Of a stretch of 46,395 nt of DNA, positions 27,871 to 46,028 are shown piece after piece (positions within the stretch are counted from its first letter, which is position 1; each line of letters begins with the position of its first letter). A program made the position numbers and the translations under genes. The DNA is from Phycisphaeraceae bacterium (GTDB lineage: Bacteria; Planctomycetota; Phycisphaerae; Phycisphaerales; Phycisphaeraceae): assembly GCA_020848195.1 (NCBI GenBank), contig JADLAP010000305.1:1-46395 (forward strand), read 5' to 3'. The notes under the pieces are model-generated. The model was not told the origin of the DNA, ran no database searches, and saw nothing but the letters and a program-made list of their open reading frames with translations.

Positions 27871-27897
27871 TCTTCTTCCTTCCCCTACCCCACAGCA

Positions 27898-29540: not shown

Positions 29541-29598
29541 TGTTCGGATGGTTAAGCCCCAGGCCGTCACAAGCCCGGGGCTGGAGGTGTAAGGAGGG

Positions 29599-29781
29599 TT
29601 ATTGATTCTCGATGAACTTGCGGCCTTTGGCGGTAATAGCAAGAAACCGGCCTTTTTTCTTGGCCAGACCGCGCGTGATCAATGCGCGACCCTCGCGCAT
29701 TATACCATCTTGCACCTGCGTCCCCCCGCCATTAACGAGAAAACGTAAAACATCTTTAGATTTTTCAGATACTTTTTTCAT
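29599..29781 (-). CDS. Small hypothetical protein (possible winged helix)
   Basis: MKKVSEKSKDVLRFLVNGGGTQVQDG..., AGGAGC upstream of ATG. Confidence 0.6.
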   Translation of the reverse strand: MKKVSEKSKDVLRFLVNGGGTQVQDGIMREGRALITRGLAKKKGRFLAITAKGRKFIENQ

Positions 29782-29818
29782 AATGCTCCTGTTGGTTTGG
29801 TTACTGTGATTTCCCAGG

Positions 29819-30412: not shown

Positions 30413-30846
30413 GGGTGCGTTATAATTATTTCATGGTTTTCACGGAACGCCTTGTAAGCATCCGTGGCTTCTTTCCGGTGCTTCTGTGATGAAAGCAATC
30501 CCATCCAGGGGGCGCCGTATTTGCACATGTGCAAAATCGACCCGGCGAAATCACCGTGCTTGAAGTCAGCGGTAATGACGCGCTCACCGGAAAACATGGG
30601 TGAGCGTTCAAAAAAAAGCGCATAGTCCAACCGCAATGGCTTTTCTGCCGCCGCGATGAGACTTTCTGCCTCGCGCCAAACTTCAGTTGCATCGGACTTC
30701 ACAATCATCACCATCTCGCGCAAAAGTTCGTGATAGCGGTTTGGATTCTCCGCAACCCTGGCGTTTCGCATGGTGATCACAAATTTGTGATTTGGCCACG
30801 TGAGCATGATGGCAACGACTTGGTGTTTGGTGATTTCGTTTTTCAT
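30409..30846 (-). CDS. Hypothetical protein
   Basis: 145-aa ORF, 4-nt overlap with next gene. Confidence 0.6.
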   Translation of the reverse strand: MKNEITKHQVVAIMLTWPNHKFVITMRNARVAENPNRYHELLREMVMIVKSDATEVWREAESLIAAAEKPLRLDYALFFERSPMFSGERVITADFKHGDFAGSILHMCKYGAPWMGLLSSQKHRKEATDAYKAFRENHEIIITHP

Positions 30847-30849
30847 TCT

Positions 30850-31185
30850 TCAAAAAGTTTCGTACTCCCATCCCGTTTTATTTTTTTTTACCGCAGTAAA
30901 GCGAAATGGGTACATCTCGGCCGCAATCTTAATCTTCACTCGTGCATCATCTTGCCAATGTCCTTTAACTTCATGTAATTCGATTTCACCATTGGCGAGC
31001 ATGACAGAAAAATCCGGCGTATAAAAAGTATTATCGGCAAGACGAAATTTTAGTCCTTCAAATCTGAACCAAGCCAGCTCTCCGGCGCGCTTACGAATTT
31101 CCAAGTGGTCACTATAGGCTTGTTCGGTACGATTCATCTCACCGATCTTTAAGCGACCAAGCGCTTGTATCTGTTTGAGCATCAT
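30850..31185 (-). CDS. DUF1064-like / PD-(D/E)XK endonuclease-like phage protein
   Basis: FRFEGLKFRLADNTFYTPDFSVMLANGEIELHEVKGHWQDDARVKIKIAAEMYPF. Confidence 0.7.
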   Translation of the reverse strand: MMLKQIQALGRLKIGEMNRTEQAYSDHLEIRKRAGELAWFRFEGLKFRLADNTFYTPDFSVMLANGEIELHEVKGHWQDDARVKIKIAAEMYPFRFTAVKKNKTGWEYETF

Positions 31186-31520
31186 TCTTCCAGCATATCC
31201 TTTTGCATTTCATCGGCGCGGAGCGTACGGTTTTCAATTTCTTCGCCGGTGTCCAGTCGCGTTACGACGATGCGGTTTTTATTCCAATCAGTTTTTGACG
31301 AAACATCAACGTTGCGCATTTCCTTGCCGGCATTCGCTTTGTCGGCCAGCAAGTTTGTCTCTGCATCGAGAAGCGCAATCTCGCCCTTCATCTGCTTATT
31401 GAGACTCGCAAGGGCATCTTTCTTGCGAGAAATCTCTGTGAGATTAACAGAAATTTTCCGTCGCATTTCGATAATTTCATCAGTCGTAAATTCGACTTCG
31501 AGGTAACGGGTTTGGTTCAT
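31182..31520 (-). CDS. Hypothetical coiled-coil protein
   Basis: 112 aa from MNQTRYLEVEF. Confidence 0.55.
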   Translation of the reverse strand: MNQTRYLEVEFTTDEIIEMRRKISVNLTEISRKKDALASLNKQMKGEIALLDAETNLLADKANAGKEMRNVDVSSKTDWNKNRIVVTRLDTGEEIENRTLRADEMQKDMLEE

Positions 31521-31622
31521 AACTCTCCTTTTGTGGTAAAGATGTTCATTTAAAAATTTCCGCGTGACCAGGTTCGCCGCCAGGCGGTGGGGATATTGCG
31601 CCGGCTGCACACGCGGAAAGAA

Positions 31623-31838
31623 TTATCCTTCGACATTCAAAACAAATTCCGTCTTGTAACATACTGGACTTGGCACCCTTGAAAATTTGTCGAGCTTTTT
31701 CTCAAGGGTAATAGCTTTGCGTTCGGCCTCGGCGGCTGATTTCGCAAAAACATGATATTCGTGCTTTGTAGTATCATCAGATTTCCCAGAACCGATTATA
31801 CTACGCCAAACTTCCATCGGAAATTTTGATTTTCTCAT
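31623..31838 (-). CDS. Small hypothetical protein
   Basis: 71 aa from MRKSKFPMEVW. Confidence 0.5.
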   Translation of the reverse strand: MRKSKFPMEVWRSIIGSGKSDDTTKHEYHVFAKSAAEAERKAITLEKKLDKFSRVPSPVCYKTEFVLNVEG

Positions 31839-31842
31839 TTTT

Positions 31843-32439
31843 TTAATTCTCCAATTTCGGCAACATCTCCCGAAGTGACTGCCAATCCTCAGGCCGTATC
31901 GTTTCAACCGATGCGGCAATCAATTTTTTCCCCGTGTTCAATTCCTTCGCGCGCGCCGGCGCCTCAAGCAGAAATGTTTTCATTTCCGTTTGCATACTTG
32001 ACTCATACGACTTCTTGAATTGGGCCCGGACGGCTGACGGGTTTTCGCGGTTGTAAATCTCAGTTCCGAATTTGTTGAAATAGCGCACAAGTCCGGGCTG
32101 ATTCCGTTCTCGCAATTTTTCGCAGATTATCTTGCATGATGTCTCGCCAAGACCCGGCATGTAGAAATTTTCAATCAGTTCCCCGATCAAATTGAAAGCC
32201 CCGTCCGCGTCCAAGAACCCCATCGCCTTTGCTGCCGCCTGCTCTATGGCTGACAAGAATGCCCACGGCGTTTCATGACTGTGGGCCACCGCTTGACACG
32301 CCTTGATAAAAGTTTGATCGTCCAAGTAATTCAATTCCATTTTCAAGGCCGCTTGACCAATATCGCCTGGAAGTTTCAAGCTTGGATGCGCCGCCGCAAT
32401 CAGCGCCATTCCCCGCGAAAAAATTTTATCACTGGGCAT
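31843..32439 (-). CDS. Putative helicase loader (G39P / lambda P-like)
   Basis: Helical N-terminal pattern MALIAAAHPSLKLP...TFIKACQAVAHSHETPWAFLSAIEQAA; directly downstream of iteron-bearing initiator. Confidence 0.45.
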   Translation of the reverse strand: MPSDKIFSRGMALIAAAHPSLKLPGDIGQAALKMELNYLDDQTFIKACQAVAHSHETPWAFLSAIEQAAAKAMGFLDADGAFNLIGELIENFYMPGLGETSCKIICEKLRERNQPGLVRYFNKFGTEIYNRENPSAVRAQFKKSYESSMQTEMKTFLLEAPARAKELNTGKKLIAASVETIRPEDWQSLREMLPKLEN

Positions 32440-33382
32440 TTGCTTCCCTCATCATTTCGTCGGCGAGCTTTGCGCCTCGCATGGCACTCATGTACACGTC
32501 AAGAGTCCGGTCACCTGTGCTTTCCTCATTTCTGCCGTTGCCCTTTGTCTCTGCCTGCCGCGCCAAAATCCTACTGTTGAATGACGCATAGTTTTTTACG
32601 AATACTGAAAAGCTGTACCCATTTTTTGCATACCATGCGTTATTTGTCCTGATATATTGCTCATAGCGATCGGTGATCTCTTCGAGTCTTTTTCCGTCAC
32701 TTCGCAACCTGGCAAATTCTTTTGCATCGGCGAGAGTCCACAACGGCGGTTCGTCAAATTCAATCTGGAATATCCTGTTTCCTTGCTCCACCTTCCAGTG
32801 CTCAAACTCCTGCTGATAGCGTGGGGGGATGGCGCTTTTCTCCCTCGTGTTATCTTGCAGGGTTCTATTTGCAGAGTTCTTTGCAGTGTTCGAAGGAACT
32901 GGGGTTCCTGGGTGGGCGGAACTGTGGTTCCTGTGTACCCCGGAACTGGGGTTCCTGGGTGGGCGGAACTGTGGTTCCTGGGTAGGGGCGGAACTGGGGT
33001 TCCTGGGTGGTTTTGCTGATTCTTCAATAAGTGACAACTGATCTTCAGATTTTTGAACACGTTTTTTTCCACGTCCATTTTCACGATCAAGAAAAACGTG
33101 CATCGCTTTCATGATACCGTGATAGCGATATTGATTTGATGACCCGGCAACTCTTTTAACTGTGATCAAGTCTTTTCTTTTTTCGAGCCGTAATATGATG
33201 TCTCTGACATACCGTTCACTGATGTGCATTCGTTTCGCAATTGTAGCCTCCGAAGGGTATGAGTAGCCTTTTCCATTGTGATCGTGGTCGAGCAAATGCC
33301 AAATACACTCCTTCTCAACGGATGACAGGTTCAATTCAGCGCCGTACCTCATTACGAGGTTTCGAAGTATGTGAATATCCAT
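32429..33382 (-). CDS. Replication initiator, winged-helix (lambda O-like organisation)
   Basis: SVEKECIWHLLDHDHNGKGYSYPSEATIAKRMHISERYVRDIILRLEKRKDLI wHTH; DNA iterons inside the gene. Confidence 0.7.
   Translation of the reverse strand: MDIHILRNLVMRYGAELNLSSVEKECIWHLLDHDHNGKGYSYPSEATIAKRMHISERYVRDIILRLEKRKDLITVKRVAGSSNQYRYHGIMKAMHVFLDRENGRGKKRVQKSEDQLSLIEESAKPPRNPSSAPTQEPQFRPPRNPSSGVHRNHSSAHPGTPVPSNTAKNSANRTLQDNTREKSAIPPRYQQEFEHWKVEQGNRIFQIEFDEPPLWTLADAKEFARLRSDGKRLEEITDRYEQYIRTNNAWYAKNGYSFSVFVKNYASFNSRILARQAETKGNGRNEESTGDRTLDVYMSAMRGAKLADEMMREANAQ
32895..33003. repeat. Five iterons GGAACTG(G/T)GGTTCC: putative replication origin
   Basis: Copies at 32895, 32918, 32942, 32965, 32990; spacing 23/24/23/25 bp; central base alternates G,T,G,T,G. 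Confidence 0.75.
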
Positions 33383-33389
33383 TGATGCA

Positions 33390-33560
33390 TCCTTAAATAC
33401 AAAGCCCCGATCCGAGCCGGGGCACCTCCACAGCCGCGCTAAGGAACGACTGTGAAGACGGCTCGAATCGAGGCTCTTAGGTGAGACGCGATTCGATACC
33501 TTAGACTTGAGCGCGTGCCCGGCGCCGAACCATCGGCGTTTCGCCGCAGTTCTGTGCAGT
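33390..33560 (-). ncRNA. Structured leader / attenuator-like element upstream of initiator gene
   Basis: GGCG-AAA-CGCC versus CGCCGA-TGGT-TCGGCG mutually exclusive hairpins, CGAATCG/CGATTCG, CTAAGG/CCTTAG, terminal GCCCCG...CGGGGCTTTGTATTT. Confidence 0.45.
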
Positions 33561-33603
33561 CATTTTTGACCGCGCCAAAACTTACTAAATATTTTTTTAA
33601 AAG

Positions 33604-34173
33604 TCAAGCGGTTTCCTGTTGATCTGGAACCCAACTTTCTAAAATTCTACGTTCGCATTTTGACCATCCTGGACGCTTGAGAAGTTCTTTAATTTTAGGG
33701 CCGATTTGAATAGCAATCTCGTCATAACATCCTATAAGCATTAAGCCCAGTTTCTCCTCCCAGAAAGATTTTGATCGCGGAGGGGGAAGAATTCTCCCCA
33801 CCGTTTCAAATGGAGGCTCATAAATAAATCCCCATATCGGTGAGACAGCTTTGCACGCTTCCGCGAACGAGCACCTTTCCGCGAACGAGCACGCTTCCGC
33901 GAACGAGCAACCTTTCGCGAACGAGCACCATTCTGCGAACGAGCACCTTTCCGCGAACGAGCACCCTTCCGCGAAAGAGCACCCTTCCGCGAAAGAGCAA
34001 CCATCCCCGAAAGAGCAACCTTTCGCGAATGAACAACCTTCCGTGAATGAACACCCTTCCGCGAAAGAGCACCCTTTCGCGAATGAACCAAAAGAATAAT
34101 ACCCAGATGGGCATTGCGTAATTCCATTGACGATCTCAAAATTTTTAAAATCGTCGATTGAATATTTTGGCAT
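33604..34173 (-). CDS. Cys/Phe hexapeptide-repeat protein (putative left-handed beta-helix)
   Basis: About 12 tandem CSF(A/G/T)(E/K/D)(G/R/W/A) units. Confidence 0.75.
   Translation of the reverse strand: MPKYSIDDFKNFEIVNGITQCPSGYYSFGSFAKGCSFAEGCSFTEGCSFAKGCSFGDGCSFAEGCSFAEGCSFAERCSFAEWCSFAKGCSFAEACSFAERCSFAEACKAVSPIWGFIYEPPFETVGRILPPPRSKSFWEEKLGLMLIGCYDEIAIQIGPKIKELLKRPGWSKCERRILESWVPDQQETA
33851..34091. repeat. 18-bp tandem repeats (gagcacctttccgcgaac-like)
   Basis: About 13 imperfect copies, in frame with hexapeptide units. Confidence 0.85.
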
Positions 34174-34366
34174 AGATTTTTCCTTTTAAATCCGAGCGGC
34201 ATATCCATGCCGCTGACAGCGGCTTTCCGACGTTTACGGGGCTTAGAGCTTTGATGTTATCGCTGCCGGGCCCGTTCGCGGTGGCCTTTGCCGCCCGGGA
34301 TTATTTTCGATGCCCCGGCGCGCGAAACCGGGGCAGTGAAGGATGAGCGTCTTGCGACGCGGGTAG

Positions 34367-34651
34367 CTATTTTTTTGCCGAGCGTTTCGCCATGCTCAAT
34401 TGCAATTGGGCGCTTTGCTCGGCGTATTTAATTTGATCGCGAACACAATCATAATCTGCTGTTCTTTTCTCCATACATGACTTGGAAAAATCAAGCAGAT
34501 AAATCGCCAGCTCATGGCTTGCCCCAATCTTCAGCGCAGCGATAGTTCCGAGCAACACGGAAGACACAGCGCAATCAACCTCGAGCCATTCGAGTGCAAG
34601 TTTCCAAAGCTCGATTTGTAGCTGAGATTTTTTTTCGTCGTTTGAGTTCAT
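34367..34651 (-). CDS. Hypothetical helical protein
   Basis: 94 aa from MNSNDEKK. Confidence 0.55.
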   Translation of the reverse strand: MNSNDEKKSQLQIELWKLALEWLEVDCAVSSVLLGTIAALKIGASHELAIYLLDFSKSCMEKRTADYDCVRDQIKYAEQSAQLQLSMAKRSAKK

Positions 34652-34742
34652 ATCATGGTGGTTTAATGAATTTTTTAGATTTCTCAACGCGCGGCGCGCG
34701 GCCGGTGAAGGCGAATTCCACGCGGATTGAGAACATGCTTTG

Positions 34743-34832
34743 TGCGGCGCAGCCGGATTCGAACCGACAATCTCAAACCCTTTCGGGAGTGCTTTTACCT
34801 CAAAAGCTTTACGCCATGATTTTGTACGCCGC
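34743..34832 (-). tRNA. Class II tRNA-like, degenerate D-arm, anticodon uncertain
   Basis: Acceptor GCGGCGTA/TGCGCCGC, long variable arm CTCCCGAAAGGGTTTGAG, T-arm GTCGG-TTCGAAT-CCGGC. Confidence 0.45.
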
Positions 34833-34928
34833 TATTAGACTCATTCGCTGTCACGTACAAAATTTGCCAGAATCCTTACATTTTTTTTGGAGAGAGCATC
34901 GAAGGACTCACAAGCGTTGCTCTCTTTG

Positions 34929-35012
34929 TGCGAATCCAGGGATTTGAACCCTGACGGCCTTTCGGCCACCGGCTCCTAAGGCCGGCGCGTCTGCCAGTTC
35001 CGCCAGACTCGC
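34929..35012 (-). tRNA. tRNA-Leu (TAG anticodon)
   Basis: GCGAGTC...GATTCGC acceptor, CCGGC-CTTAGGA-GCCGG anticodon arm, variable arm GGCCGAAAGGCC, T-arm CAGGG-TTCAAAT-CCCTG. Confidence 0.9.
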
Positions 35013-35016
35013 AAGT

Positions 35017-35123
35017 GATGAAGTTCGGCTACACCACAACAGCTTTGGCTGGGCACCATACCCACTCGCCTTCACAGATTCGAACTGTGCCACCTAACTT
35101 CATCTTGTAGGACTCGAACCTAC
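35017..35123 (-). other. Orphan tRNA T-arm-like modules enclosed by inverted repeat
   Basis: CACAG-TTCGAAT-CTGTG (35073..35089) and GTAGG-TTCGAGT-CCTAC (35107..35123); GATGAAGTT/AACTTCATC arms at 35017..35025 and 35096..35104. Confidence 0.5.
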
Positions 35124-35128
35124 CATAG

Positions 35129-35200
35129 TAGCGCCGGCGCGACTCGAACGCGCGACCTCTTGGTTATGAGCCAAGCGAGCTTCCGCTGCTCTACGGCGCG
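35129..35200 (-). tRNA. tRNA-Met or Ile2 (CAT anticodon)
   Basis: D-arm GAGC..GCTC, anticodon arm CTTGG-CTCATAA-CCAAG, T-arm GCGCG-TTCGAGT-CGCGC; 1-72 C/T mismatch. Confidence 0.85.
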
Positions 35201-35206
35201 ATGGGA

Positions 35207-35501
35207 GCCTTCCGCGAAGCGTTTTGCCTGATCAGTAAGCGTACTCGCACAAAACTTGGAAGGCATATAATCTCGGCGCGGCCTTTCAGACCGCTTTCAG
35301 CGCCGTGGTACACGGTGCGCCGAGAGCATTTTATCGCTTTCGCTGCGGATTGACCTCGTATTTTGCCTGCCGTCTGCGTCAATCAGTAGCCCGACGGCCT
35401 GTTTCTGTGGCTTTCAACCATCCGGCATCGCCACCCGCTTTCATCCCTGGCCGGTGGCGCAATGCTAACGCTTAGCAGCCGCTTCGGGGAGGTGGCGAAG
35501 C
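35207..35501 (-). ncRNA. Candidate multi-hairpin structured RNA
   Basis: Serial inverted repeats GCCTTCC/GGAAGGC, TCTCGGCGC/GCGCCGAGA, GCCGTC/GACGGC, CGCCACC/GGTGGCG, GCTTCG/CGAAGC. Confidence 0.5.
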
Positions 35502-35509
35502 CAGACGGG

Positions 35510-36589
35510 TTATACTTTTTCCGATGGGATCCAACTCTCAACGAGCATTCTCATCTTGCCGAGCACGGCCGCTTGTGCTGGCTTGGCAAGGTCGTCAATC
35601 TTTTTGACGCGACGATCTGCGAGTTCTTGTTTGCAAGCCGCGTCAAACTTGTCTACCTTTCCGAGTTCCCTTGCTTTTTCTCTCCACTCGGTCATTGAGA
35701 CGCGCGTTTCGTTAATCTCGTCTGCCGGCGCCGGCGAAGCTGGAGCTTGCTGGCCTGGAGTCTCGGGCTCGTTTTTCTCTCCGGCTTCGCGCGGCTCTTC
35801 CGGCATATCATCGACGCGGCGAACCTGTTTCGTTTGGAACGATGCACCGTGTTGCGGTCGATCATTTACGATGCTACTTTTTTTTTCATCAGGTTCATCA
35901 GGAATTTCAGTAAAAGCAGTATCGATATGATGATTGTTTTCATGGACGTCATCTTCAATATCTTGAGTAAAAAGATCACTACCACCCGTTGCAGTAATGA
36001 CAGCATCCACGAACGCGCGTTTTTTCGCCATTTTCAAGCAAGTATTGTAGAAGTCAGCTGGGTTGTCATGTTCCACACGATCATTGCTGAATTTTATCAC
36101 ATTCCATTTCGCTCCGATTTTCTTCACACCGAATCCCTTGCCGCCGATAAGGTCGGCTTTTTTAGCCGCGTCTTTTTCCTTCCAATAGTTCTGTGGCACC
36201 GGCCCGACGACTTCGGGGTCTGCTTTGCGCCAACGGTATTTACTTTCCATCGTGGAGCAACTTCCAACACCTTCGGCAAGAAAGTTTCCACTGGTGATGT
36301 GTGAAAGAGTGCAGACACAACTATATTCTCGATGATCACCGTTATTGAGTTGTGTCGTTGTTACCAAAAATCGCGGTGCAAAACGAAAAGTCATTGCCAG
36401 CTTTTCTGCACCGGACTTGTACAGCGTGGCTTTTTGTGTGCCGGGGATCGTGCCGTAATGTTCGTCCTTGACCATCACAGAGTTTTTGATCTGCGCAATT
36501 TTTTGAACTTGCGAAATGACATCATTAACTGCCAGTTCATCGCGTTGCGCTAACGCGGTCTCTTTGAATTTTACAACTGCTTTGCTCAT
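35510..36589 (-). CDS. Putative recombination / ssDNA-binding phage protein
   Basis: HYGTIPGTQKATLYKSGAEKLAMTF...FYNTCLKMAKKRAFVDAVITATGGSDLFTQDIED pattern of widespread phage early protein; ATGA-coupled. Confidence 0.5.
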   Translation of the reverse strand: MSKAVVKFKETALAQRDELAVNDVISQVQKIAQIKNSVMVKDEHYGTIPGTQKATLYKSGAEKLAMTFRFAPRFLVTTTQLNNGDHREYSCVCTLSHITSGNFLAEGVGSCSTMESKYRWRKADPEVVGPVPQNYWKEKDAAKKADLIGGKGFGVKKIGAKWNVIKFSNDRVEHDNPADFYNTCLKMAKKRAFVDAVITATGGSDLFTQDIEDDVHENNHHIDTAFTEIPDEPDEKKSSIVNDRPQHGASFQTKQVRRVDDMPEEPREAGEKNEPETPGQQAPASPAPADEINETRVSMTEWREKARELGKVDKFDAACKQELADRRVKKIDDLAKPAQAAVLGKMRMLVESWIPSEKV

Positions 36590-37260
36590 GACGCCCTCGC
36601 ACTGAGAATTTCTTCTTCGTAAAACTCCATGCCGGGGCATTCTCTCCAACCCTGGCGTACCATCCCGACGCAATCCACAGAAACGAATTGCGCAAGGTTT
36701 TGATTGGCGGCCGCCGCCTGGATGAATGCCGACATATTGGTGATTTTGGCTTTCAAAACCTTCTTGGCACTGATGCCGGCAGCCTTTGGCACTGTGCTCG
36801 CCACGGCGACGATGGGCGCTGAAACATTCGCGGCAGCTTCGCGGTACATTTCGGCGTTGAGTTCGTTGCCGCGCTTTGCGTTGTCTTTGGCGTTTCGTTC
36901 AAGCCGCTTGCGCTCGGCTGCGGCCTTAGCATCCGCTTCAGCTTGCAGTCGCGCTTGCTGCTCGCGTCGCTGGCGCTCTTGTTCCGATTGAAACTCAATC
37001 ATCTTGCGTTTCAAAAGTGATTCGAAAAAGTCAATCTTATCGGTGAAACTTTTTTCACGCGCAACGATAGTCTTCCACGCCGTATGTGCCGCCGACTTCA
37101 TCTCTGCGAAATGAGCGACGATGGCGTTGCGATGACGTTTCAAAGCAATCAGTTCGTTGCTGGCAAGCAAATACTGATTGCTATTTTCTACGAGAAAGCT
37201 TTCAACGCGCGCTTTAATGCTATCGAAATCAATCTCAGGTTTTTGCAATTGAAGTTCCAT
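36586..37260 (-). CDS. Hypothetical coiled-coil protein
   Basis: 224 aa, coupled to 35510..36589. Confidence 0.65.
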   Translation of the reverse strand: MELQLQKPEIDFDSIKARVESFLVENSNQYLLASNELIALKRHRNAIVAHFAEMKSAAHTAWKTIVAREKSFTDKIDFFESLLKRKMIEFQSEQERQRREQQARLQAEADAKAAAERKRLERNAKDNAKRGNELNAEMYREAAANVSAPIVAVASTVPKAAGISAKKVLKAKITNMSAFIQAAAANQNLAQFVSVDCVGMVRQGWRECPGMEFYEEEILSARAS

Positions 37261-37261
37261 A

Positions 37262-37330
37262 AACCAATCTCTTAAATAAAGCCCACCGGCGCCCGTTTTG
37301 GGCTTGGGGTTTTATGCGGGCGCCGGCAAG
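37262..37330 (-). promoter_or_regulatory. Attenuator-like leader with two mutually exclusive stems
   Basis: CCGGCGCCCG...CGGGCGCCGG (10 bp) overlaps AAGCCCA...TGGGCTT+TATTT terminator. Confidence 0.45.
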
Positions 37331-37436
37331 CGTCGAGTCAATTTTTTCCATCAGAATTACCTCGGGCGAGGGCGAATCTCGCTAACTTCACGAGCATGCG
37401 CATTCGTATCGCCTGAGGCGTTCACTTCGTGTGAAC

Positions 37437-37622
37437 CTACTCTTCGGCTTCATCACAATTTTCATTCCCCCACTCGCCCCACCAATCGGCAATTTCATCA
37501 TGGCCCAGGTACGGGCCGGACTTCACCAGCGCCTCGTGGGCACAGTCCGGGAATTTTTGTGTCTTCTCGTTCAGCGCTTCGGTGTGCTCAAAAAGCGCGG
37601 CGAGTTTTTCTAAGAGTTCCAT
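37437..37622 (-). CDS. Small acidic hypothetical protein
   Basis: 61 aa MELLEKLAALFEHTEALNEK... Confidence 0.5.
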   Translation of the reverse strand: MELLEKLAALFEHTEALNEKTQKFPDCAHEALVKSGPYLGHDEIADWWGEWGNENCDEAEE

Positions 37623-37639
37623 AATTTTTCGACTGTTTT

Positions 37640-37688
37640 CAAAATTCAGTTAATTTGCCGCAGCCGCCCGACTCGCGCCGGGCTTTCC
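37640..37688 (-). repeat. Left 49-bp arm of long inverted repeat
   Basis: Reverse complement of 38765..38813 with 2 mismatches. Confidence 0.95.
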
Positions 37689-37690
37689 AA

Positions 37691-37960
37691 CTACAGTTCG
37701 CCTTCGATCTGATACGTGATTTCGTCGAGATCGGCATTGTCCGGTAGATCAGACATTTTTGCCGTTTCCCATTTCGCTGGCGTGGCAACGCCAGTGCTAT
37801 CACCGACAGATCCGTCCTCGCTGATAAACGCGAATTGCGCTCCAAATCCTTCGCCGAACATGACGGCGAATTTATTTTCGTCATTTCCAGACCATTCTGT
37901 TACCTTTACGAGCTTTGGCTTCTCCATTTTCTCAATCTCCTTTTTCGTGAGTCGCTTCAT
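37691..37960 (-). CDS. Hypothetical early protein
   Basis: 89 aa from MKRLTKKEIEKMEKPKLVKVTEW. Confidence 0.6.
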   Translation of the reverse strand: MKRLTKKEIEKMEKPKLVKVTEWSGNDENKFAVMFGEGFGAQFAFISEDGSVGDSTGVATPAKWETAKMSDLPDNADLDEITYQIEGEL

Positions 37961-38017
37961 TGCAATCACTATTTTTCTTTCTGCGACAATACATCATTCA
38001 ACTTCCGTGCCGCAAAT

Positions 38018-38033
38018 TGTTTCACGTGAAACA
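38018..38033. promoter_or_regulatory. parS centromere-like site (ParB/Spo0J binding consensus)
   Basis: Perfect TGTTTCACGTGAAACA, read directly. Confidence 0.9.
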
Positions 38034-38071
38034 AAGACTTACGCGACCGTCATATTCATAGGTGGTAAATA

Positions 38072-38122
38072 ATTGGCCATGTGCATGGCGAAAATTGGCC
38101 AGATGTGGGCGAAAATTAGCCA
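38072..38122. promoter_or_regulatory. Three operator-like repeats ATT(G/A)GCCA
   Basis: 38072..38079, 38094..38101, 38115..38122, spacing 22 and 21 bp. Confidence 0.55.
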
Positions 38123-38126
38123 GTGC

Positions 38127-38155
38127 TTGGAAACATTTTGCTGTAAGTGTATAAT
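38127..38155 (+). promoter_or_regulatory. Sigma70-like promoter TTGGAA-N17-TATAAT
   Basis: Sequence match upstream of rightward early operon. Confidence 0.6.
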
Positions 38156-38209
38156 AATAAGTAGCGCTTTTTATGCACAACGATTGCAATAAATAATAGC
38201 GTGAGCGCA

Positions 38210-38263
38210 ATGAAGCGACTCACAAAAGCGGCGACCGTGTTAGAGTCGCAAGGTCAAAAATGA
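38210..38263 (+). CDS. 17-aa leader peptide MKRLTKAATVLESQGQK
   Basis: ATG..TGA overlaps start of 38260..38694 (ATGA); N-terminus matches divergent gene 37691..37960. Confidence 0.4.
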   Translation: MKRLTKAATVLESQGQK

Positions 38264-38694
38264 ACCTCCAACAGTCCCTTCAGTTTTTAAACCAATCGAG
38301 CGAAAAACTCGAAAAATCGCGCGCCCGCCTGGATAAGGCATGTCGCATTATCGCCGATAAAATAAGTCTGTCCGAAGCAGCCCGAGACGGCGATAACGTT
38401 ACAGTCGATGGCCGCGTTTACCAGGTGACACGAATGGAATCACGATCACTTGGCTCAGAATGGTTTCTTGCCAGCATGGAAGATTCTGAATATCGGCGAG
38501 GTTTTATTTGCGTCGAAAAAGGCCACTATCTTCATGGCGATTTCAATTGTTGGTTGGAGCCGGCACCGCGCAACGACAAGGTTAATTTTGCTACCCACGC
38601 TGCCGAGATCGTTAATGCGTTTGCGGCTTTGTGGGAAGAGCGTGCGAATACCGCCGATAATGCAGCGAAAAGTGCAGAGTCGGTGAAAAATTAG
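38260..38694 (+). CDS. Hypothetical early protein
   Basis: 144-aa ORF downstream of promoter. Confidence 0.65.
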   Translation: MNLQQSLQFLNQSSEKLEKSRARLDKACRIIADKISLSEAARDGDNVTVDGRVYQVTRMESRSLGSEWFLASMEDSEYRRGFICVEKGHYLHGDFNCWLEPAPRNDKVNFATHAAEIVNAFAALWEERANTADNAAKSAESVKN

Positions 38695-38764
38695 AGCACT
38701 GCCGCAGCCCAGTTTTGCCCCGCGTCCAGAGCGATTGCGCGGAGACGGATTCCGCTCCGTAGTG

Positions 38765-38813
38765 GGAAAGCCCGGCGCGAGTCGGGCGGCTGCGGCAAAT
38801 CAACTGAATCTTG
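38765..38813 (+). repeat. Right 49-bp arm of long inverted repeat
   Basis: See 37640..37688. Confidence 0.95.
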
Positions 38814-38857
38814 AAACAAGTCATCGCATTCACCGCGATGGCGCAAAGGGAGAAGAA

Positions 38858-39208
38858 ATGAAAGTGGCGGTAACAAAAGAGCATTGTGAGATCGGGGAAT
38901 GGGGAAAAGGGAAGGATAATCCAGTCGATCTCGCGTTGCGTGACGCTGGATTGCAAATAAAGTCCTTCGCCCAAAGATTCGAGAAGAACTATAACGTTCT
39001 TTTCGAGTCAGAAAATTTGGGGCCATATGAACGCATTGCAATTTCTGAGTTTTCTATCGCCGATAAACTCGGTGAGCAAATGTGGGAAGAAAATGTCAAA
39101 CCAATCGACTTTGAAATTCAAGTTTATGCTTCCAATAGCCAACAACAGCCGGAAAACCCGCGCTTGATTTCGCAGGGCATACCGGCAATGCCAATTCGCA
39201 TACTGTAG
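38858..39208 (+). CDS. Hypothetical protein
   Basis: 116 aa from MKVAVTKEHCEIGEW; GGGAGAAG upstream. Confidence 0.6.
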   Translation: MKVAVTKEHCEIGEWGKGKDNPVDLALRDAGLQIKSFAQRFEKNYNVLFESENLGPYERIAISEFSIADKLGEQMWEENVKPIDFEIQVYASNSQQQPENPRLISQGIPAMPIRIL

Positions 39209-39253
39209 AAATTTTGATTTATATTTCCTACTGTGCTGCGCCCGATCATCGTG

Positions 39254-39286
39254 AAAAAAGCCCCGTCAGCAATGCGGGGCTTTTTT
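39254..39286. terminator. Bidirectional terminator
   Basis: AAAAAAGCCCCG..CGGGGCTTTTTT between convergent genes. Confidence 0.85.
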
Positions 39287-39962
39287 ATTTTGCATACGCC
39301 AGGTTATGCTTTTCAATTTCCGGCAAGATCATCTTTTTTATTTTGCCGAAACCGGGGCGCTTCATGAATGTTTCAAGATTTGAATCATACCAGGCTTTTT
39401 CTGTGAGCCATGTCGTTGCGATATCCAATTTGCCGGAGTCCATCGAGTAGCCCGGCAAGTTGAGCCGGCGCGGCGGAGTGGGCTGATACCACCAAAACGG
39501 CAAAGCGTAAATTTTCAGCCCGCTGGCGATTAAGGCCTGGAGCATCGCCCGCCAATCTTCTTTAATCGTTTGTCCCAGGCGCGCCGCGGTGAACGCGCCA
39601 TGAAGTTCGATCCCACCCCCTTTGAACTCAAACCCGTTGTGATACGCACACAAGTAGCACATAGTGCGCACGTCGTCACGCCCCCCCTGCCAGACCGGGA
39701 TGCCGTGATCGAGCTGGCCGGGCCGTCGATTTACCCCACGCTCCAGGCAAAAATTTTTTCCATCCACACCAATGACAAGCGGCGTGCAGCAATACGCGCA
39801 CACGCCGCGCTGTCTAATCAAAACCACAAGCTTTGTCGCAATGGGCAAGTCGTCGCGATCCTTGCCGAGGCCTTTTACCGGCCGATAATCCAAATCCTTG
39901 ACTTCGAGATCAAGAACCATACGATTATCGCGCGCTGGCAAGATATTTTTCAACAGCTTCAT
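39285..39962 (-). CDS. HNH endonuclease
   Basis: CAYC...LDHGIPVWQGGRDDVRTMCYLCAYHN. Confidence 0.8.
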   Translation of the reverse strand: MKLLKNILPARDNRMVLDLEVKDLDYRPVKGLGKDRDDLPIATKLVVLIRQRGVCAYCCTPLVIGVDGKNFCLERGVNRRPGQLDHGIPVWQGGRDDVRTMCYLCAYHNGFEFKGGGIELHGAFTAARLGQTIKEDWRAMLQALIASGLKIYALPFWWYQPTPPRRLNLPGYSMDSGKLDIATTWLTEKAWYDSNLETFMKRPGFGKIKKMILPEIEKHNLAYAK

Positions 39963-41532
39963 GGATTTTCTCAAGTTCTTCGTCGTGTTGTACGCGGTGC
40001 AATTGCGTGTTGAACCAATCGCCGAGCTTCAGGCAATTTTCCGAAGCTCGCGATGCGGTGGCCTGCAAAACTTTCTCAAGCGAATCATCCGCGCCGGAAA
40101 GTGGAACATGTGGGGCCATAGCGATGCCGAGGCCGTCGTAAGGTGCGTCCAGCTCATACTTGAACGAGCCAACTTCATTCCAGCCGGCAATGTCTTCCTC
40201 GAAAATCATCGCACCGGCGCGCGCGCGAAAATTTCCGACGCCGATCCAACGCATTTGGTCACGTGCACCTCTGAATGTCTCGAAGTCCGGCCGCGTGGTG
40301 ATTGGCACGGTGGAGATTCCGTATTTCCTTCCCCGCTTGGTGAATGACGCATACAACGTGATGCCGCGCTGATAATCTTTTCGATGCTTGTAAAGCTCGT
40401 GCGTTGCATCAAACTCATCGAAGTAAATGTAAATGCGGGGAACCTTGATTGGATTTTTCCAGCGCGTGGCATCTTCCAAGTCAAGCACGTCTGTTACGCC
40501 GGAGTGATCAGTGCTTTTTTGCAAACACCAGCGCAAACGTTTTTTGCGTTCGTCTTCAATCAGCGTCATGACCCGCTCGAAAACTTCAATGTCTGAAACG
40601 TGGATAACGTTTCGCGGCGGCCGTCTCATTTGCCAATCTACGCCCTCGATGTCGACGAAAATATTGACCACGTCGGGATCCGCTAAGTTCGTCTGCGCGC
40701 AAAGTGTGCGTGCAATGTTAGACTTTCCATCGCCGGTATTTCCAGCGATGCCGGTGTGACGTTTCTTCCGCCAGTTCCACCAAACTGGAATCGGTGAAAG
40801 TCCAATGCACGGCTCAAGGCGCGACAGGGCACCGGGCAAGTTTCCAAGACGCAAATTATTTTTTGGCAACCCCTTTTTACTGGCGATAATCATAATGCCA
40901 GAAGGCGGCGCATTGCCAACGCCAATCAACATGACCCCGGCGGCGCGTTGAATCGCATCGAGTTGATCGAAAACTTTTTTGATATGCACGGGCGCCCGCG
41001 TCTTCAGTAAATAAGTATGCGGCGCCGGGGCTTCAATCTTCGCTTGGCCGGAGTCGAAAAATTTGTTCGCCGCGAAGCCGTCGAGTATTTCACGCCGGCA
41101 ATCCTCCCAGCTCATGAAAAGCTTAGTGTAAAAATTCAGTGCGGTGATTACGACCACGGCGCGCATTATCCACAGCGCGGCATTGTGATAGCCGTGATCA
41201 CAGAAAACGAAATAGGTTTGCAGTCCGAGCCATGAAATTTCATAGCCATGCCAGCCATGACTCGCCCACAGCCCGGCCAGCTTGTACGTCACCCAAAGAC
41301 TACAGATCGACGCGAGCACGGCAACGAGGCCCAACAAATTCCAGTGCCGCGCTTTCTTTGCGGTATGCTTGAGAAATTTAAAAGCCTCGGGGATGAAGTA
41401 AGGCCATACCATCCGTAGCGGCCAGAAACGCATATTGAAAACGATCCGCGCCACGCGGCCGGCGAGCCACAGAATAAAAAAGGCGGCCGCGCCGCCGAAG
41501 ATGATTAAGCCGATTGTTTTAATCTCTGACAT
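39925..41532 (-). CDS. Membrane-anchored FtsK/SpoIIIE/HerA-like ATPase
   Basis: Three N-terminal TM segments; Walker A GNTGDGKSN, Walker B RIYIYFDEFD. Confidence 0.75.
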   Translation of the reverse strand: MSEIKTIGLIIFGGAAAFFILWLAGRVARIVFNMRFWPLRMVWPYFIPEAFKFLKHTAKKARHWNLLGLVAVLASICSLWVTYKLAGLWASHGWHGYEISWLGLQTYFVFCDHGYHNAALWIMRAVVVITALNFYTKLFMSWEDCRREILDGFAANKFFDSGQAKIEAPAPHTYLLKTRAPVHIKKVFDQLDAIQRAAGVMLIGVGNAPPSGIMIIASKKGLPKNNLRLGNLPGALSRLEPCIGLSPIPVWWNWRKKRHTGIAGNTGDGKSNIARTLCAQTNLADPDVVNIFVDIEGVDWQMRRPPRNVIHVSDIEVFERVMTLIEDERKKRLRWCLQKSTDHSGVTDVLDLEDATRWKNPIKVPRIYIYFDEFDATHELYKHRKDYQRGITLYASFTKRGRKYGISTVPITTRPDFETFRGARDQMRWIGVGNFRARAGAMIFEEDIAGWNEVGSFKYELDAPYDGLGIAMAPHVPLSGADDSLEKVLQATASRASENCLKLGDWFNTQLHRVQHDEELEKIHEAVEKYLASAR

Positions 41533-41684
41533 GATAACTTCTTATTTTTGGCTGCAGGCTTTTTTCCCCCCGCTCCCCCCGTATGGGGCCCGAACAACTC
41601 ACCTTGCACATTCTTCGCCGGTTTCTTTGTTTGTCTCGCCACCCAGCGCAAGCCCTGCATATCTCTCAATTTCATCAAGCCCAT
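41505..41684 (-). CDS. Small basic hypothetical protein
   Basis: 59 aa from MGLMKLRDMQGLRWVARQTKK, overlaps neighbours slightly. Confidence 0.45.
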   Translation of the reverse strand: MGLMKLRDMQGLRWVARQTKKPAKNVQGELFGPHTGGAGGKKPAAKNKKLSCQRLKQSA

Positions 41685-42256
41685 CAAAACCCCCGATCTT
41701 CCAACGCAAAATGACACTGCGCACACAGGTCGATGTCATACAAAGCATTGTGTAACTTCGTCTCATCGACTTCAATTTTCAACTCCCGCGCCAAATCTTT
41801 CAGCTTCGGCCACTTTCCATTGGGGCCATAAATCATCAAGCTTCCCCGCTTCATGGTATCGCTCAGCGCCGGCACTACGGGCAAAATAAAACTCTCGCCT
41901 GCCAGCGTCCGCAATAACCAATTCGTGAGAATCACCCAATCGAATGCAACTAAGTTGTGGCCGACTACAACATCGGGCGATTCAAACCGAAAAATATCTT
42001 TCCATCGGTGCGCCGCTTCCACATGCTCGACGCCCCGCTCTTCCAAGAATTGGCGCGAAATTCCGGTGATAGTTGCAATCGCCGGCCGCAAGTCCGGCGT
42101 CTTCAGAAAAATTTCACCCTCGCGCACAAACCTTCGGTTGCGATAAATTCCAAAGGCGATCTGAATCGGATCGTCTTTGAAAAAATCAAACTTCGGCCGT
42201 CCATCCGACCACGAATCATTGTTCATCTTAATATTACAGACTAAAACGGTTTTCAT
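41684..42256 (-). CDS. DnaQ/DEDDh-like exonuclease fold, degenerate motif I
   Basis: GHNLVAFDWVIL (Exo II), HNALYDIDLCAQ (Exo III); N-terminal VCNIKMNN in place of DxE. Confidence 0.7.
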   Translation of the reverse strand: MKTVLVCNIKMNNDSWSDGRPKFDFFKDDPIQIAFGIYRNRRFVREGEIFLKTPDLRPAIATITGISRQFLEERGVEHVEAAHRWKDIFRFESPDVVVGHNLVAFDWVILTNWLLRTLAGESFILPVVPALSDTMKRGSLMIYGPNGKWPKLKDLARELKIEVDETKLHNALYDIDLCAQCHFALEDRGF

Positions 42257-42264
42257 CTAAAAAA

Positions 42265-42453
42265 CTACCATCCTACGGTTATAAACCAAATTGCTGCAAC
42301 GACCAGCAATGCAAAAAAAACCAAATGTCCATTCCCTGAAGTCTCGACTTCTTTAACCTCATCTTGCTTCTGTTCAGGAAGCATTACACCCAACGGGATA
42401 AATCTTGAGCCAATCACAGGCTCATCTTTCTTAACAACACCATTGTCACTCAT
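42265..42453 (-). CDS. Small tail-anchored membrane protein
   Basis: 62 aa, C-terminal TM GHLVFFALLVVAAIWFITVGW. Confidence 0.6.
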   Translation of the reverse strand: MSDNGVVKKDEPVIGSRFIPLGVMLPEQKQDEVKEVETSGNGHLVFFALLVVAAIWFITVGW

Positions 42454-42488
42454 AAAACTCCTTTGCGAAGCAATCCCGGCGCAAGGAT

Positions 42489-43667
42489 TTAGGCCGGTGT
42501 CGCTGTGGTTAAAGGTTTGCCATTGGAAAAATAAGTTTTTCCAAGCTTTCCATGAACGAGCTTGGAGAAGGTGCCGCATTTGATATTGAGTCTGCCGGCG
42601 AGATAAGTCGCGTTGACAAACTCGGCGAACTCACCACGGCTGTACATCTGCGCGACACGGAGAGCGTATTGCTGTTTGCTTTCATCGGTGTGCCGCGCGG
42701 GCATAATAAAGTCCGGCTCGGGCGCTGTCTTTGTCCCACTGTTTGGTGCGGGCTCCTGAGCGCCCGAGGCCGGAACAAAAGCAATCGGGTTATATTCTGA
42801 TTTTCCGGTGCTTGCCGCGCGCATCATCAGCATAACAAGCATAACAGCCAGCACTCCGAATTGAGTCATGGTGGCCACGCCGCGCTTGAGTGAAATTCCC
42901 ATGTCAGCTTCAATAACATCTTCCGCAGACTTCCCGCCGAAGCGCCCGGCGAGTGAGTCAAACACGGCCCTGTAATTGTCCTGGGCGGCGAGCAATTGAG
43001 TGGCAGTTCGCCAACGATCTTTCTGCATTGCGCCGAGGGCCGTTGCGACATTCAGGTTGACCTTGTTCGCGCGACCGGCGTAAAATGCCAGATCGTTCTT
43101 TTGGCGTTTCGACATTCCGGTGTCACGGACTGCCGCGGTGAATGCCCCGGAAAAACTGGCCGCTTGCAACGATGCGTTCGCGGTTGCGCGTGAAATACTC
43201 AAGATAGTCGAATCCGTAGCGCTGAGTGTAGCTTTTAAATCGTTCACGCTTTGCCTTGCTGCCACGAGCGCCGGGTTGCCGCTGAAATCATAGGGGTTGA
43301 GTATCCGGCGTTGTTTCGATCCAAGCGCGTCGATATGATTCACCACGAGTACGGCGGAATAAAGTCCAATCGCGCCGAGGATGATTGCCATTGCCGCGTA
43401 AAATGCAAATGTTGCCGATGCGATTTTTCCCCACGCGAAAAGCTGCTTGGCAGCGAAGATAATGCCGAAATAAATCAGGTCAATGGCGCCGACGATACCG
43501 AACGCGATAAAATAGGCAATGCCGTGCGGATAGCCCGTGAGCAAACTTTCCGCAACGGTCATTGCATCGCTGTAAAGCAGCACGCCAATGATAACTCCGC
43601 CGGTGACATAGACAATTCGCGGGTCGAAATCCTTTTGGGCGGCGAGTTGAATTTGGTTTGTGTTCAT
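42489..43667 (-). CDS. Multi-pass membrane protein with large soluble helical domain
   Basis: N-terminal hydrophobic segments, later TM GVLAVMLVMLMM, cytoplasmic-like C-terminus. Confidence 0.7.
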   Translation of the reverse strand: MNTNQIQLAAQKDFDPRIVYVTGGVIIGVLLYSDAMTVAESLLTGYPHGIAYFIAFGIVGAIDLIYFGIIFAAKQLFAWGKIASATFAFYAAMAIILGAIGLYSAVLVVNHIDALGSKQRRILNPYDFSGNPALVAARQSVNDLKATLSATDSTILSISRATANASLQAASFSGAFTAAVRDTGMSKRQKNDLAFYAGRANKVNLNVATALGAMQKDRWRTATQLLAAQDNYRAVFDSLAGRFGGKSAEDVIEADMGISLKRGVATMTQFGVLAVMLVMLMMRAASTGKSEYNPIAFVPASGAQEPAPNSGTKTAPEPDFIMPARHTDESKQQYALRVAQMYSRGEFAEFVNATYLAGRLNIKCGTFSKLVHGKLGKTYFSNGKPLTTATPA

Positions 43668-43674
43668 ATTGGAG

Positions 43675-43857
43675 TCATTTAGAGTTCAAAAAGTGATAAG
43701 CAATCGTAGCCCATGCGCAAATTGCGCAGAAGAATAGTACCATAATTGCCATTGTTCTGATGCCAAAAAATTTGTATGCGTCGATGAGTAGCATCGTAAC
43801 AAGTACCCCGACAGGTAGAATTAGCATTACCATGCCAATTGTTTTGTTATATTTCAT
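43675..43857 (-). CDS. Small two-TM protein
   Basis: 60 aa; MVMLILPVGVLVTMLLI and MAIMVLFFCAICAWATIAY. Confidence 0.55.
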   Translation of the reverse strand: MKYNKTIGMVMLILPVGVLVTMLLIDAYKFFGIRTMAIMVLFFCAICAWATIAYHFLNSK

Positions 43858-43900
43858 GTCTAAAAACAGTTACGCCCTGCACAGGCCAGCCGCCGCTCGT

Positions 43901-43963
43901 GATACCGGTCAGGAAATCTTTCGCAGCAGCCAGCCCGTGAAGGGCGCGTGAGTGACCGGTATC
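43901..43963 (-). promoter_or_regulatory. Structured 5' leader of membrane operon
   Basis: Perfect 11-bp inverted repeat GATACCGGTCA...TGACCGGTATC with inner GCCC-TTCAC-GGGC. Confidence 0.45.
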
Positions 43964-44051
43964 TTGTGGAGCGAATATAATAAATTTTTGTTGTGAATGT
44001 CAAGAATTTTTTTTAGAGTATTGAAATAACATCTTGAGCAGCGTAAATTCT

Positions 44052-44159
44052 ATGACAAAAAGCAAGGTTGACAACGTTGTCGCAAGGTTGCCGGAAAACG
44101 GCGTCTTGAAATTGGAAAAAATTTCTGATTTAACCGGCCTGAAGCCCAAACGCCTATGA
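44052..44159 (+). CDS. 35-aa small ORF upstream of terminase
   Basis: MTKSKVDNVVARLPENGVLKLEKISDLTGLKPKRL; ATGA overlap with next start. Confidence 0.5.
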   Translation: MTKSKVDNVVARLPENGVLKLEKISDLTGLKPKRL

Positions 44160-44623
44160 GTGCAGAACAAGCTAACGATCAAGGTAAACCGCGCAAATCT
44201 CAGCGCGGCGTGATAGGCGATAAGGCGCGGGCGGCGCAATGGCCGAAAGGAAAAAGTGGCAACGAGGCAGGCCGGCCAAAGGGTAAAAGCTTTAAGACAT
44301 TGATTGAAGAAGTTGGCCGCGAAGGTTTGCCGGCCGAATTGTCAAAATCGACTGGCGCAAAAACTTGGAAAGAATTGCTTGTTCGCGCGGCCTTTAAACA
44401 GGCACTCAAACAAGCGCCATACTTCAAGGCGCTGCTTGATACCGAAAAAGAATCCAATGAACTCCTAACCGAATTTCTTGACATTGTCCACCGCTACGGA
44501 ATCACCCCGGAACAAATTAAAGCCGATCCAGTCTTACGCGAAGCTGCTATCCGATGCGGCTATCTTTCAGATAGCACGGGCGAAGATGGAACGAATGGCC
44601 GCTCAGATGGCGCAAAGAACTGA
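44156..44623 (+). CDS. DUF5681-like / terminase small subunit candidate
   Basis: WPKGKSGNEAGRPKGKSFKTL motif; directly upstream of terminase large subunit. Confidence 0.6.
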   Translation: MSAEQANDQGKPRKSQRGVIGDKARAAQWPKGKSGNEAGRPKGKSFKTLIEEVGREGLPAELSKSTGAKTWKELLVRAAFKQALKQAPYFKALLDTEKESNELLTEFLDIVHRYGITPEQIKADPVLREAAIRCGYLSDSTGEDGTNGRSDGAKN

Positions 44624-46028
44624 TAATGAAATATTATCAGATGCCGACAAAAATTTCGTTTCTTTCGCTTGCTCAATTGGAAATTATGATGCAGAGCCGG
44701 CGCACAAGTTAATCGCAGACCATCTTGACGCAGTGGTTAGGGGAGACATAACACGGTTAATGATTTTTGCGCCGCCACAACATGGCAAGAGTGAACTTAC
44801 AAGCATTCGTTTTCCGGCCTACTGGTTTGGCCGACGTCCAAACGATCCCGTTATTTTGTCGAGCTACGGCGCGAGCTTGGCAAAAAGAAATAGTAGTGCA
44901 GCCCGCGATATCCTTGAAAGCGACCGCTTCAAAACGATCTTCCCAAAAGTGAAAACAGACAATCGCAGTCGGTCAGTTGAGTTTTGGAAGTTGGCGCATC
45001 CCCATCGCGGCGCGGTGAAGGCTTCCGGTATTGGCGGGCCACTGACCGGCTTCGGTGGAATGTTGGGTATCATTGACGATCCCATCAAAGATTGGAAAAG
45101 CGCGCAATCGGTAACGCTTCGTGAAAATTTTAAGTCTTGGTACAAGAGCACTTTTCGCACCCGTATTTGGCAGATGGGTGCGATTATACTTTTGATGACG
45201 CGCTGGCATCCGGACGATGCCGCCGGTTGGCTTCTAAAGCAAGGGTTAGAAGATTGGACGATTTTACGTTTGCCTGCCATTGCTGAGACGCAAGAGGAGC
45301 GCGACGAAAATAATAAACAAATTGGCCTGCCGGCTGGAAAAGATGATCCGCTGCAACGTCAGCCCGGCGAAGCTCTATGTCCTAACCGATTCAATGTCGT
45401 GACGCTTGGACAAATAAAAAATGATGTCGGTTCTATCATTTGGCCGGGAGCTTATCAAGGTGTGCCTCGTAAAACTGAGGGCAATCGTTTTAAAAGAGAA
45501 TGGTTGCAAATTGTTAAAACTGGCGCGCCTAAAGATGCAACACGAGTGCGTTATTGGGATAATGCGGCTACAGATGAGGGGGGAAAATATACGGCTGGTG
45601 TGTTGCTTGCAGAATATCAGAATATAATTTATGTTGAGGATGTTGCGCGCGGCCAATGGTCAACGGGTATTCGTAACAACAACATGAAACAAGTTGCGAC
45701 GATGGATTTGCAACGCGGCAATGTTGAAATATGGTTTGAGCAAGAACCGGGAAGCGCGGGTAAAGATGCAGTTGATTACATTGTTAAAATGATGGCGGGT
45801 TTTAACATTCGGGCGAATAAGGAAACCGGTGATAAGGATGTAAGGCTTGAGCCATTTGCAGCACAAGCCGAGGGTGGAAACGTTAGGTTGGTTGAAGGCC
45901 GTTGGAATTATGACTATATAGAAGAAATGCTTGCGGTGCCCAATAGTCCTTATCGTGACCAAGCTGATGCAAGCGCCGGGGCCTATAATAAAATTAGTAA
46001 ATCTGGTATTTACCAAAAGCTATGGTGA
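44586..46028 (+). CDS. terL: Terminase large subunit
   Basis: Walker A APPQHGKSE, ILLMTRWHPDDAAG, WDNAATDEGG nuclease-like segment; ORF extends to TTG at 44478, internal ATG preferred. Confidence 0.85.
   Translation: MERMAAQMAQRTDNEILSDADKNFVSFACSIGNYDAEPAHKLIADHLDAVVRGDITRLMIFAPPQHGKSELTSIRFPAYWFGRRPNDPVILSSYGASLAKRNSSAARDILESDRFKTIFPKVKTDNRSRSVEFWKLAHPHRGAVKASGIGGPLTGFGGMLGIIDDPIKDWKSAQSVTLRENFKSWYKSTFRTRIWQMGAIILLMTRWHPDDAAGWLLKQGLEDWTILRLPAIAETQEERDENNKQIGLPAGKDDPLQRQPGEALCPNRFNVVTLGQIKNDVGSIIWPGAYQGVPRKTEGNRFKREWLQIVKTGAPKDATRVRYWDNAATDEGGKYTAGVLLAEYQNIIYVEDVARGQWSTGIRNNNMKQVATMDLQRGNVEIWFEQEPGSAGKDAVDYIVKMMAGFNIRANKETGDKDVRLEPFAAQAEGGNVRLVEGRWNYDYIEEMLAVPNSPYRDQADASAGAYNKISKSGIYQKLW

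Follow-up and report, generated by a model that had tools for sequence, protein, structure and literature searches.

The closest described systems to the locus considered here are the nut sites of phage lambda and the put sites of phage HK022. In lambda, nutL and nutR are carried as hairpin-bearing RNA, in the sense orientation, in both divergent early transcripts; nutR lies just after the first gene, cro, and the operator pair OL/OR is nested inside the nut pair. In HK022, the put RNA alone makes RNA polymerase resistant to terminators, through the zinc-binding domain of the beta' subunit. To our knowledge, phage antitermination by RNA only is known from HK022 and its close relatives. The put RNAs are approximately 70 nt long and form a pair, putL and putR, downstream of PL and PR, with putR about 270 nt from its own start site (PMC9378689).

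A duplicated element in a comparable place is found in an orphan, unclassified phage. The window, which is the whole stretch of 46,395 nucleotides that was analysed, is a complete phage genome, circular and about 46.27 kb long, since its first and last 127 bases are identical. The contig was binned in a 3.77-Mb metagenome-assembled genome (MAG).

Phage genome and transcription units

The rightward genes of the phage encode portal, head, tail and terminase proteins. The leftward genes encode an exonuclease-like protein, an O-like replication protein, a Holliday-junction resolvase, a Cas4-like exonuclease and a methylase. From the gene order together with promoter-like and terminator-like sites, we infer four transcription units. 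The leftward early unit (L1) would run from 37.98 to 27.9 kb on the minus strand, and the rightward early unit (R1) from 38.16 to 39.25 kb on the plus strand. A further leftward unit (L2) would extend from 43.97 to 39.3 kb on the minus strand, and the rightward late unit (R2) from 44.0 kb round to 27.9 kb on the plus strand. Strong terminator-like hairpins lie at both points of convergence, 39254-39286 and 27897-27927.

The genome has several other features. A second divergent promoter region (43950-44100) separates the L2 operon from the late one, with TTGACA-18-TATATT on the minus strand and several promoters on the plus strand. A tRNA cluster at 34928-35200, inside the leftward operon, comprises two to three genes: Leu, Met and a Ser call that overlaps. 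The protein encoded at 33604-34173 contains many six-residue repeats of the CSFAEG/CSFAKG type, which come from an 18-bp tandem array. The large terminase (44478-46028) shows up to 53-58% identity with the terminases of IMG/VR phages and Anaerolineae MAG contigs; because nearly all other genes of the phage are unrelated to those phages and contigs, this points to mosaic exchange of the terminase.

The two operon heads

Both early operon heads have the same order: an inner element, a first gene, an outer element and a second gene, with unrelated genes in the two operons. Leftward gene 1 (37691-37969, minus strand) encodes an acidic protein of 92 amino acids, or 78 from a better-placed ATG. Rightward gene 1 (38260-38694, plus strand) encodes 144 amino acids. 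Neither product matches a family, and structure prediction without alignments gives both low confidence (mean pLDDT 57.6 and 40.9). Leftward gene 2 (37437-37622, minus strand) encodes an acidic protein of 61 amino acids and starts 9 nt past the outer element. Rightward gene 2 (38858-39208, plus strand) encodes 116 amino acids, starts 36 nt past the outer element and matches phrog_19191, a family of unknown function, at E 7e-4.

An ancient inverted duplication of an operon head was one of three explanations in the original prediction, which was made from the letters of the sequence. Comparison of the first genes with each other (92 against 144 amino acids, shuffle p 0.25) and of the second genes with each other (61 against 116, shuffle p 0.13) shows no similarity, and the DNA of the two heads beyond the two elements gives no convincing match. 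Since the genes between the repeats are unrelated, the arrangement is not simply a duplicated operon head. An old duplication would have to lose all gene similarity yet keep 92% identity in the outer element, which implies that the element is constrained or homogenised.

The outer element

The outer arms lie exactly where they had been reported, at 37640-37688 on the minus strand and 38765-38813 on the plus strand, with 2 mismatches in 49 nt. The repeat is longer than first stated: it covers 64 nt at 92% identity (5 mismatches), with copy A at 37631-37694 on the minus strand and copy B at 38759-38822 on the plus strand, in the same sense relative to their own transcripts. This similarity is far beyond chance (E 2e-19 by BLAST against the phage's own genome, 5.6e-21 by local comparison). 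At up to three mismatches, the phage and the whole 3.77-Mb assembly hold just these two copies. The order given in the original prediction, with the element in sense in both divergent transcripts, after gene 1 and before gene 2, is confirmed. The gap of 68 nt that separates leftward genes 1 and 2 (37623-37690) is almost entirely taken up by copy A. The reading frame across the element is open in copy B and has a stop in copy A (AAT-TAA), so the element is not a conserved peptide.

The arms had also been described as lying around parS. Their centres do not coincide: that of the outer pair is at about 38226.5, that of the inner pair at 38085 and that of parS at 38025.5. Because the repeats are concentric neither with each other nor with parS, an inverted duplication around parS is a poor description; they are elements that the two divergent operons have in common, not a single palindrome. 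A third, weak inverted pair (GCGCTTTTT..GCACA.CGA, 85% over 20 nt) is seen at 37579-37598 on the minus strand, within the 61-residue gene, and at 38164-38183 on the plus strand, near the predicted rightward start site. With an E of 0.048 it may be due to chance.

Such a pair could be the remnant of recent inverted copying, by gene conversion or by a small hairpin-bearing mobile repeat, that has no present function. The 92% identity, the sharp ends and the GC-rich hairpin would fit this origin. It is nevertheless quite improbable in view of the restriction to two copies, their shared relative position and sense, and the presence of a second, more diverged shared element in the same order.

Alternatively, the pair may work as DNA, either as a protein-binding site or as a recombination site, possibly inverting 37695-38758 and so swapping the first genes of the two operons. 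Homologous exchange is conceivable over 64 bp at 92% identity, both operons would be formally intact after inversion, and the phage encodes a Cas4/RecE-like exonuclease as well as the Holliday-junction resolvase. Against this, one orientation alone was assembled, and a DNA site needs neither sense placement between genes nor a tight fit in the gap of copy A. The original prediction had proposed a search for a site-specific invertase; the phage proteins that were scanned, not all of the late ones among them, gave no match to an invertase, resolvase-invertase or integrase family. Action at the DNA level is very doubtful.

The 3' part of the element also resembles the end of a CRISPR repeat (...TTGAAAC), which would suggest an RNA-based anti-CRISPR or a solitary CRISPR-repeat mimic. 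The likeness is superficial and confined to the last 7 nt of copy B, copy A ends in TTGAAAA, and the MAG contains no such repeat; hardly any weight can be given to this idea.

Predicted fold

The two copies are predicted to fold alike, through the same local core of 46 nt (37653-37698 on the minus strand in copy A, 38755-38800 on the plus strand in copy B). The predicted lower stem, CUGUAGU(U)/(G)GCUGCGG, has 7-8 pairs, many of them G-U. Above it are a purine-rich bulge of 5-6 nt on the 5' side (GGAAA) and an upper stem of 7 bp, GCCCGGC-GCGA-GUCGGGC, whose GCGA loop is of the GNRA type. The tail CAAAUUAACUGAAUUUUGAAA, 3' of the hairpin, is predicted to be single-stranded. The core folds of copies A and B have energies of -21.8 and -21.6 kcal/mol on an identical plan, modestly better than those of shuffled sequences (z -2.7 and -1.7). 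None of the five differences between the 64-nt copies falls within the 14 base pairs that both folds share, and since there are just two copies, nearly identical, they provide no covariation evidence for the fold.

Copy B alone has an extended structure, a predicted three-way junction at 38700-38797 on the plus strand. A 10-nt complement about 80-90 nt upstream, UGCCGCAGCC (38700-38709), pairs perfectly with GGCUGCGGCA of copy B and encloses a second long hairpin. This 101-nt fold (-55.2 kcal/mol, z -3.97) would compete with the local lower stem. No such complement is found upstream of copy A.

The inner element and the operator array

The inner pair, which had been given as 21-bp arms, is present at both sites, with a 17-nt core free of mismatches (GCAATGAAGCGACTCAC, at 37947-37963 on the minus strand and 38207-38223 on the plus strand). 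The chance expectation for this core is 0.07 in the window, and the phage has no other copy. Like the outer pair, this one far exceeds what chance would give. Weaker similarity extends over 49 nt at 73% (37936-37984 and 38186-38234). Both copies are predicted to form a hairpin with one bulged base: GUGAUUGC-AAUGAA-GCGACUCAC in copy A (37947-37969, minus strand, z -2.35) and GUGAGCGC-AAUGAA-GCGACUCAC in copy B (38201-38223, plus strand, z -3.88). In each, the ATG would lie within the six-base AAUGAA loop; the 5' strands differ between the copies, and pairing is kept by shifting the single-base bulge. As DNA, the element reads GTGA-N15-TCAC.

Both operons had been said to begin with an ATG that codes for MKRLTK. 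The peptide is formally encoded in both. In copy A its codons extend the gene in frame, upstream of an ATG that has a better Shine-Dalgarno sequence. In copy B it opens a 17-codon reading frame (MKRLTKAATVLESQGQK, ending in TGA) whose stop codon overlaps the ATG of the 144-residue gene. The shared start is likelier to reflect conservation of nucleotides than of protein. This leader frame (38210-38260) overlaps the start of the 144-residue gene as ATGA, and translational coupling to that gene is possible.

Shared control of both operon heads is the probable role of the inner pair, whose copies would serve either as operators on the DNA or as hairpins at translation starts. Three tandem AWAATTRGCCA sites at 38069-38122 on the plus strand, spaced by 22 and 21 bp, make a more convincing operator array. 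They lie just upstream of a candidate rightward sigma70-like promoter, TTGGAA-17-TATAAT (38127-38155, plus strand), which was recognised by its 10/12 match to the consensus. The 8-mer ATTRGCCA occurs just three times in the 46 kb, both strands counted, always within 38069-38122, and the triplet is probably an operator or other regulator-binding array.

Nearby, at 38018-38033, lies the perfect parS-type palindrome TGTTTCACGTGAAACA, the sole site of this type in the MAG at up to one mismatch. Genomes related to the MAG carry TGTTYCACGTGRAACA parS sites, mostly TGTTCCACGTGGAACA. No ParB_N protein was found in the MAG or the phage, and the phage may use the ParB of its host.

The inner hairpins bear on another explanation of the outer element, in which it is a post-transcriptional site: the mRNA would form a structure between genes 1 and 2 that one protein binds or an RNase processes, and that co-ordinates the translation or stability of the neighbouring genes. 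An inner hairpin whose loop carries a start codon, as predicted for both operons, would agree with control at this level. So would copy A, which fills its gap and ends 9 nt ahead of the start codon of gene 2, the common sense and predicted fold of the two copies, and the alternative long-range fold of copy B. The distance to the next start is not kept, however (9 against 36 nt), the downstream genes are unrelated, the Shine-Dalgarno sequence of gene 2 in copy B lies outside the element, and no candidate RNA-binding protein was found. On balance a post-transcriptional role seems somewhat unlikely.

Comparison with lambda and HK022

The same blind scan for inverted pairs was run on the window, on lambda and, with its settings relaxed slightly, on the immunity region of HK022. 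In lambda it returns exactly two pairs, which the annotation identifies as nutL/nutR (36 nt, 83%) and OL/OR (33 nt, 79%). In the HK022 region the top pair (41 nt, 78%) corresponds to putL/putR, judging by its position beside a cro-like gene and the description in PMC9378689. In the window it returns the outer and the inner pair, nested in the same way as those of lambda. A survey of 64 further phage loci (1.19 Mb in total) gave only one place with an inverted pair at E <= 1e-5, and that place is of a different kind, away from any divergent operon head.

Like lambda nut, the outer element would be a hairpin-bearing RNA in sense in both divergent early transcripts, with a possible operator pair nested inside, and like nutR it comes just after the first gene. 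It differs in length (64 nt against about 17-36 nt), in its predicted GNRA tetraloop on a bulged stem, and in its rightward operon, which is short and followed by convergent genes. The lambda boxB hairpin GCCCTGAARAAGGGC has no match at the outer elements and chance-level matches elsewhere. For boxA (YGCTCTTTA), 18 matches with one mismatch are found where 18.7 are expected, none of them within the 64-nt elements. The early proteins nearby are acidic and gave no family hit of the N kind, and the search revealed no small, basic, arginine-rich protein resembling N, although a diverged N could escape it.

The inner pair resembles OL/OR in being the inverted pair closest to the divergent promoters. 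It differs from OL/OR in that each side carries a single copy, which lies downstream of the promoters and overlaps an ATG.

With HK022 put, the outer element shares a length of about 70 nt, a pair in both divergent early operons, a compact structured RNA (here by prediction) and the lack of any recognised dedicated protein beside either element. Locally, it is one bulged hairpin with a tail, in contrast to the two stem-loops of put, and HK022 is unrelated to this phage. A model of putL/putR recovers its own copies at about 1e-27, whereas its best match in the window has an E of 0.39 and does not lie at the outer elements. Above the Rfam gathering score, the window gives tRNAs only. By sequence, then, the outer element does not belong with the lambda nut sites, nor by profile with the put RNAs. 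Its resemblance to both is one of place, duplication and sense, from which a like function may be suggested.

Search for relatives

No relative carrying the outer element was found in any of the collections searched, some of which may omit records near the window's own. Searches with the DNA of the early region found no relatives, and searches with the early proteins found none that is close, the best being about 30-42% identical over part of one protein. Portal searches return portals of about 32% identity that have nothing else in common with the phage. A terminase search yielded 70 viral and 6 genome loci, whose early regions share almost nothing with the phage and contain no comparable inverted pair.

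Several candidates were rejected. Exact patterns of the element gave one match, which lies in a late coding region and is put down to chance. A 40-nt inverted repeat in locus L008 lies within a repeat cluster among rightward genes, not at a divergent operon head. A covariance model of the element, run against 395 genomes of the phylum, gave six weak matches at E <= 0.05, no more than chance, and the best of these is inside an ordinary coding frame.

Terminators and antitermination

If the element is like nut or put, each operon should have terminators in front of some of its own genes. In the leftward operon, a terminator-like hairpin followed by UUUAUUU (37281-37331, minus strand, dG -29.2) lies between genes 2 and 3, approximately 300-350 nt downstream of copy A. 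It is the best-scoring hairpin of its kind on both strands of the 16.6-kb early region (27700-44300), and is intergenic; the 91 nt around it fold with a z of -2.24. No promoter-like site was found between it and leftward gene 3. A second, weaker intergenic hairpin (33404-33423, minus strand) lies just before the O-like replication gene.

The rightward operon is different. The sole terminator past copy B is the strong, predicted bidirectional intrinsic terminator at 39254-39286 that ends this short operon, and beyond it lie opposite-strand genes up to 43.9 kb. Because these genes are convergent, RNA from readthrough would be antisense to them, unless its purpose is to express the late genes at 44 kb. 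Terminators ahead of genes of the same operon are therefore predicted for the leftward operon and not for the rightward one.

Among the three options of the original prediction, a shared RNA regulator is the best supported: the placement and the duplication support it, and the mechanism is a matter of analogy. We tentatively favour the view that the outer element acts in cis as an RNA signal, in the manner of lambda nutL/nutR or HK022 putL/putR, while rating it at somewhat less than an even chance. In each of the divergent early operons, the element would be made early, once the first gene has been transcribed. The hairpin, with its bulge and GNRA cap, would then load onto the moving RNA polymerase together with the single-stranded tail, either unaided or with the help of a factor from host or phage, and the loaded polymerase would read through terminators further along. 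For the leftward operon, the candidates are the hairpins at 37281 and 33404, which precede the recombination and replication genes.

This view is favoured because of the position, the duplication and the terminator, because the same blind scan recovers the nut and put pairs in the same layout, and because inverted pairs are rare in other phage loci while both copies here fold alike in prediction. On these grounds we infer that the outer element is an RNA signal acting on RNA polymerase and that the two leftward hairpins terminate transcription. The main weakness of an antitermination role is copy B, which is followed by a terminator and then by convergent genes. The missing boxB, boxA and put matches, the lack of an N-like protein and of any homologue, and the modest z of the fold also speak against it.

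A more specific proposal is that the element is a put-like antiterminator RNA that acts without a phage protein. It would be unrelated to HK022 put by sequence, lie outside the lambdoid phages and thus represent an independent origin, with copy B possibly a two-fold switch. In this full form the proposal is unlikely.

Significance

If the antitermination reading is true, a sequence-unrelated element in the same position of an orphan environmental phage would suggest that the nut/put layout has evolved repeatedly. Blind searches for inverted pairs in sense in divergent early operons, which here recover the sites of lambda and HK022, could then find such sites without homology.
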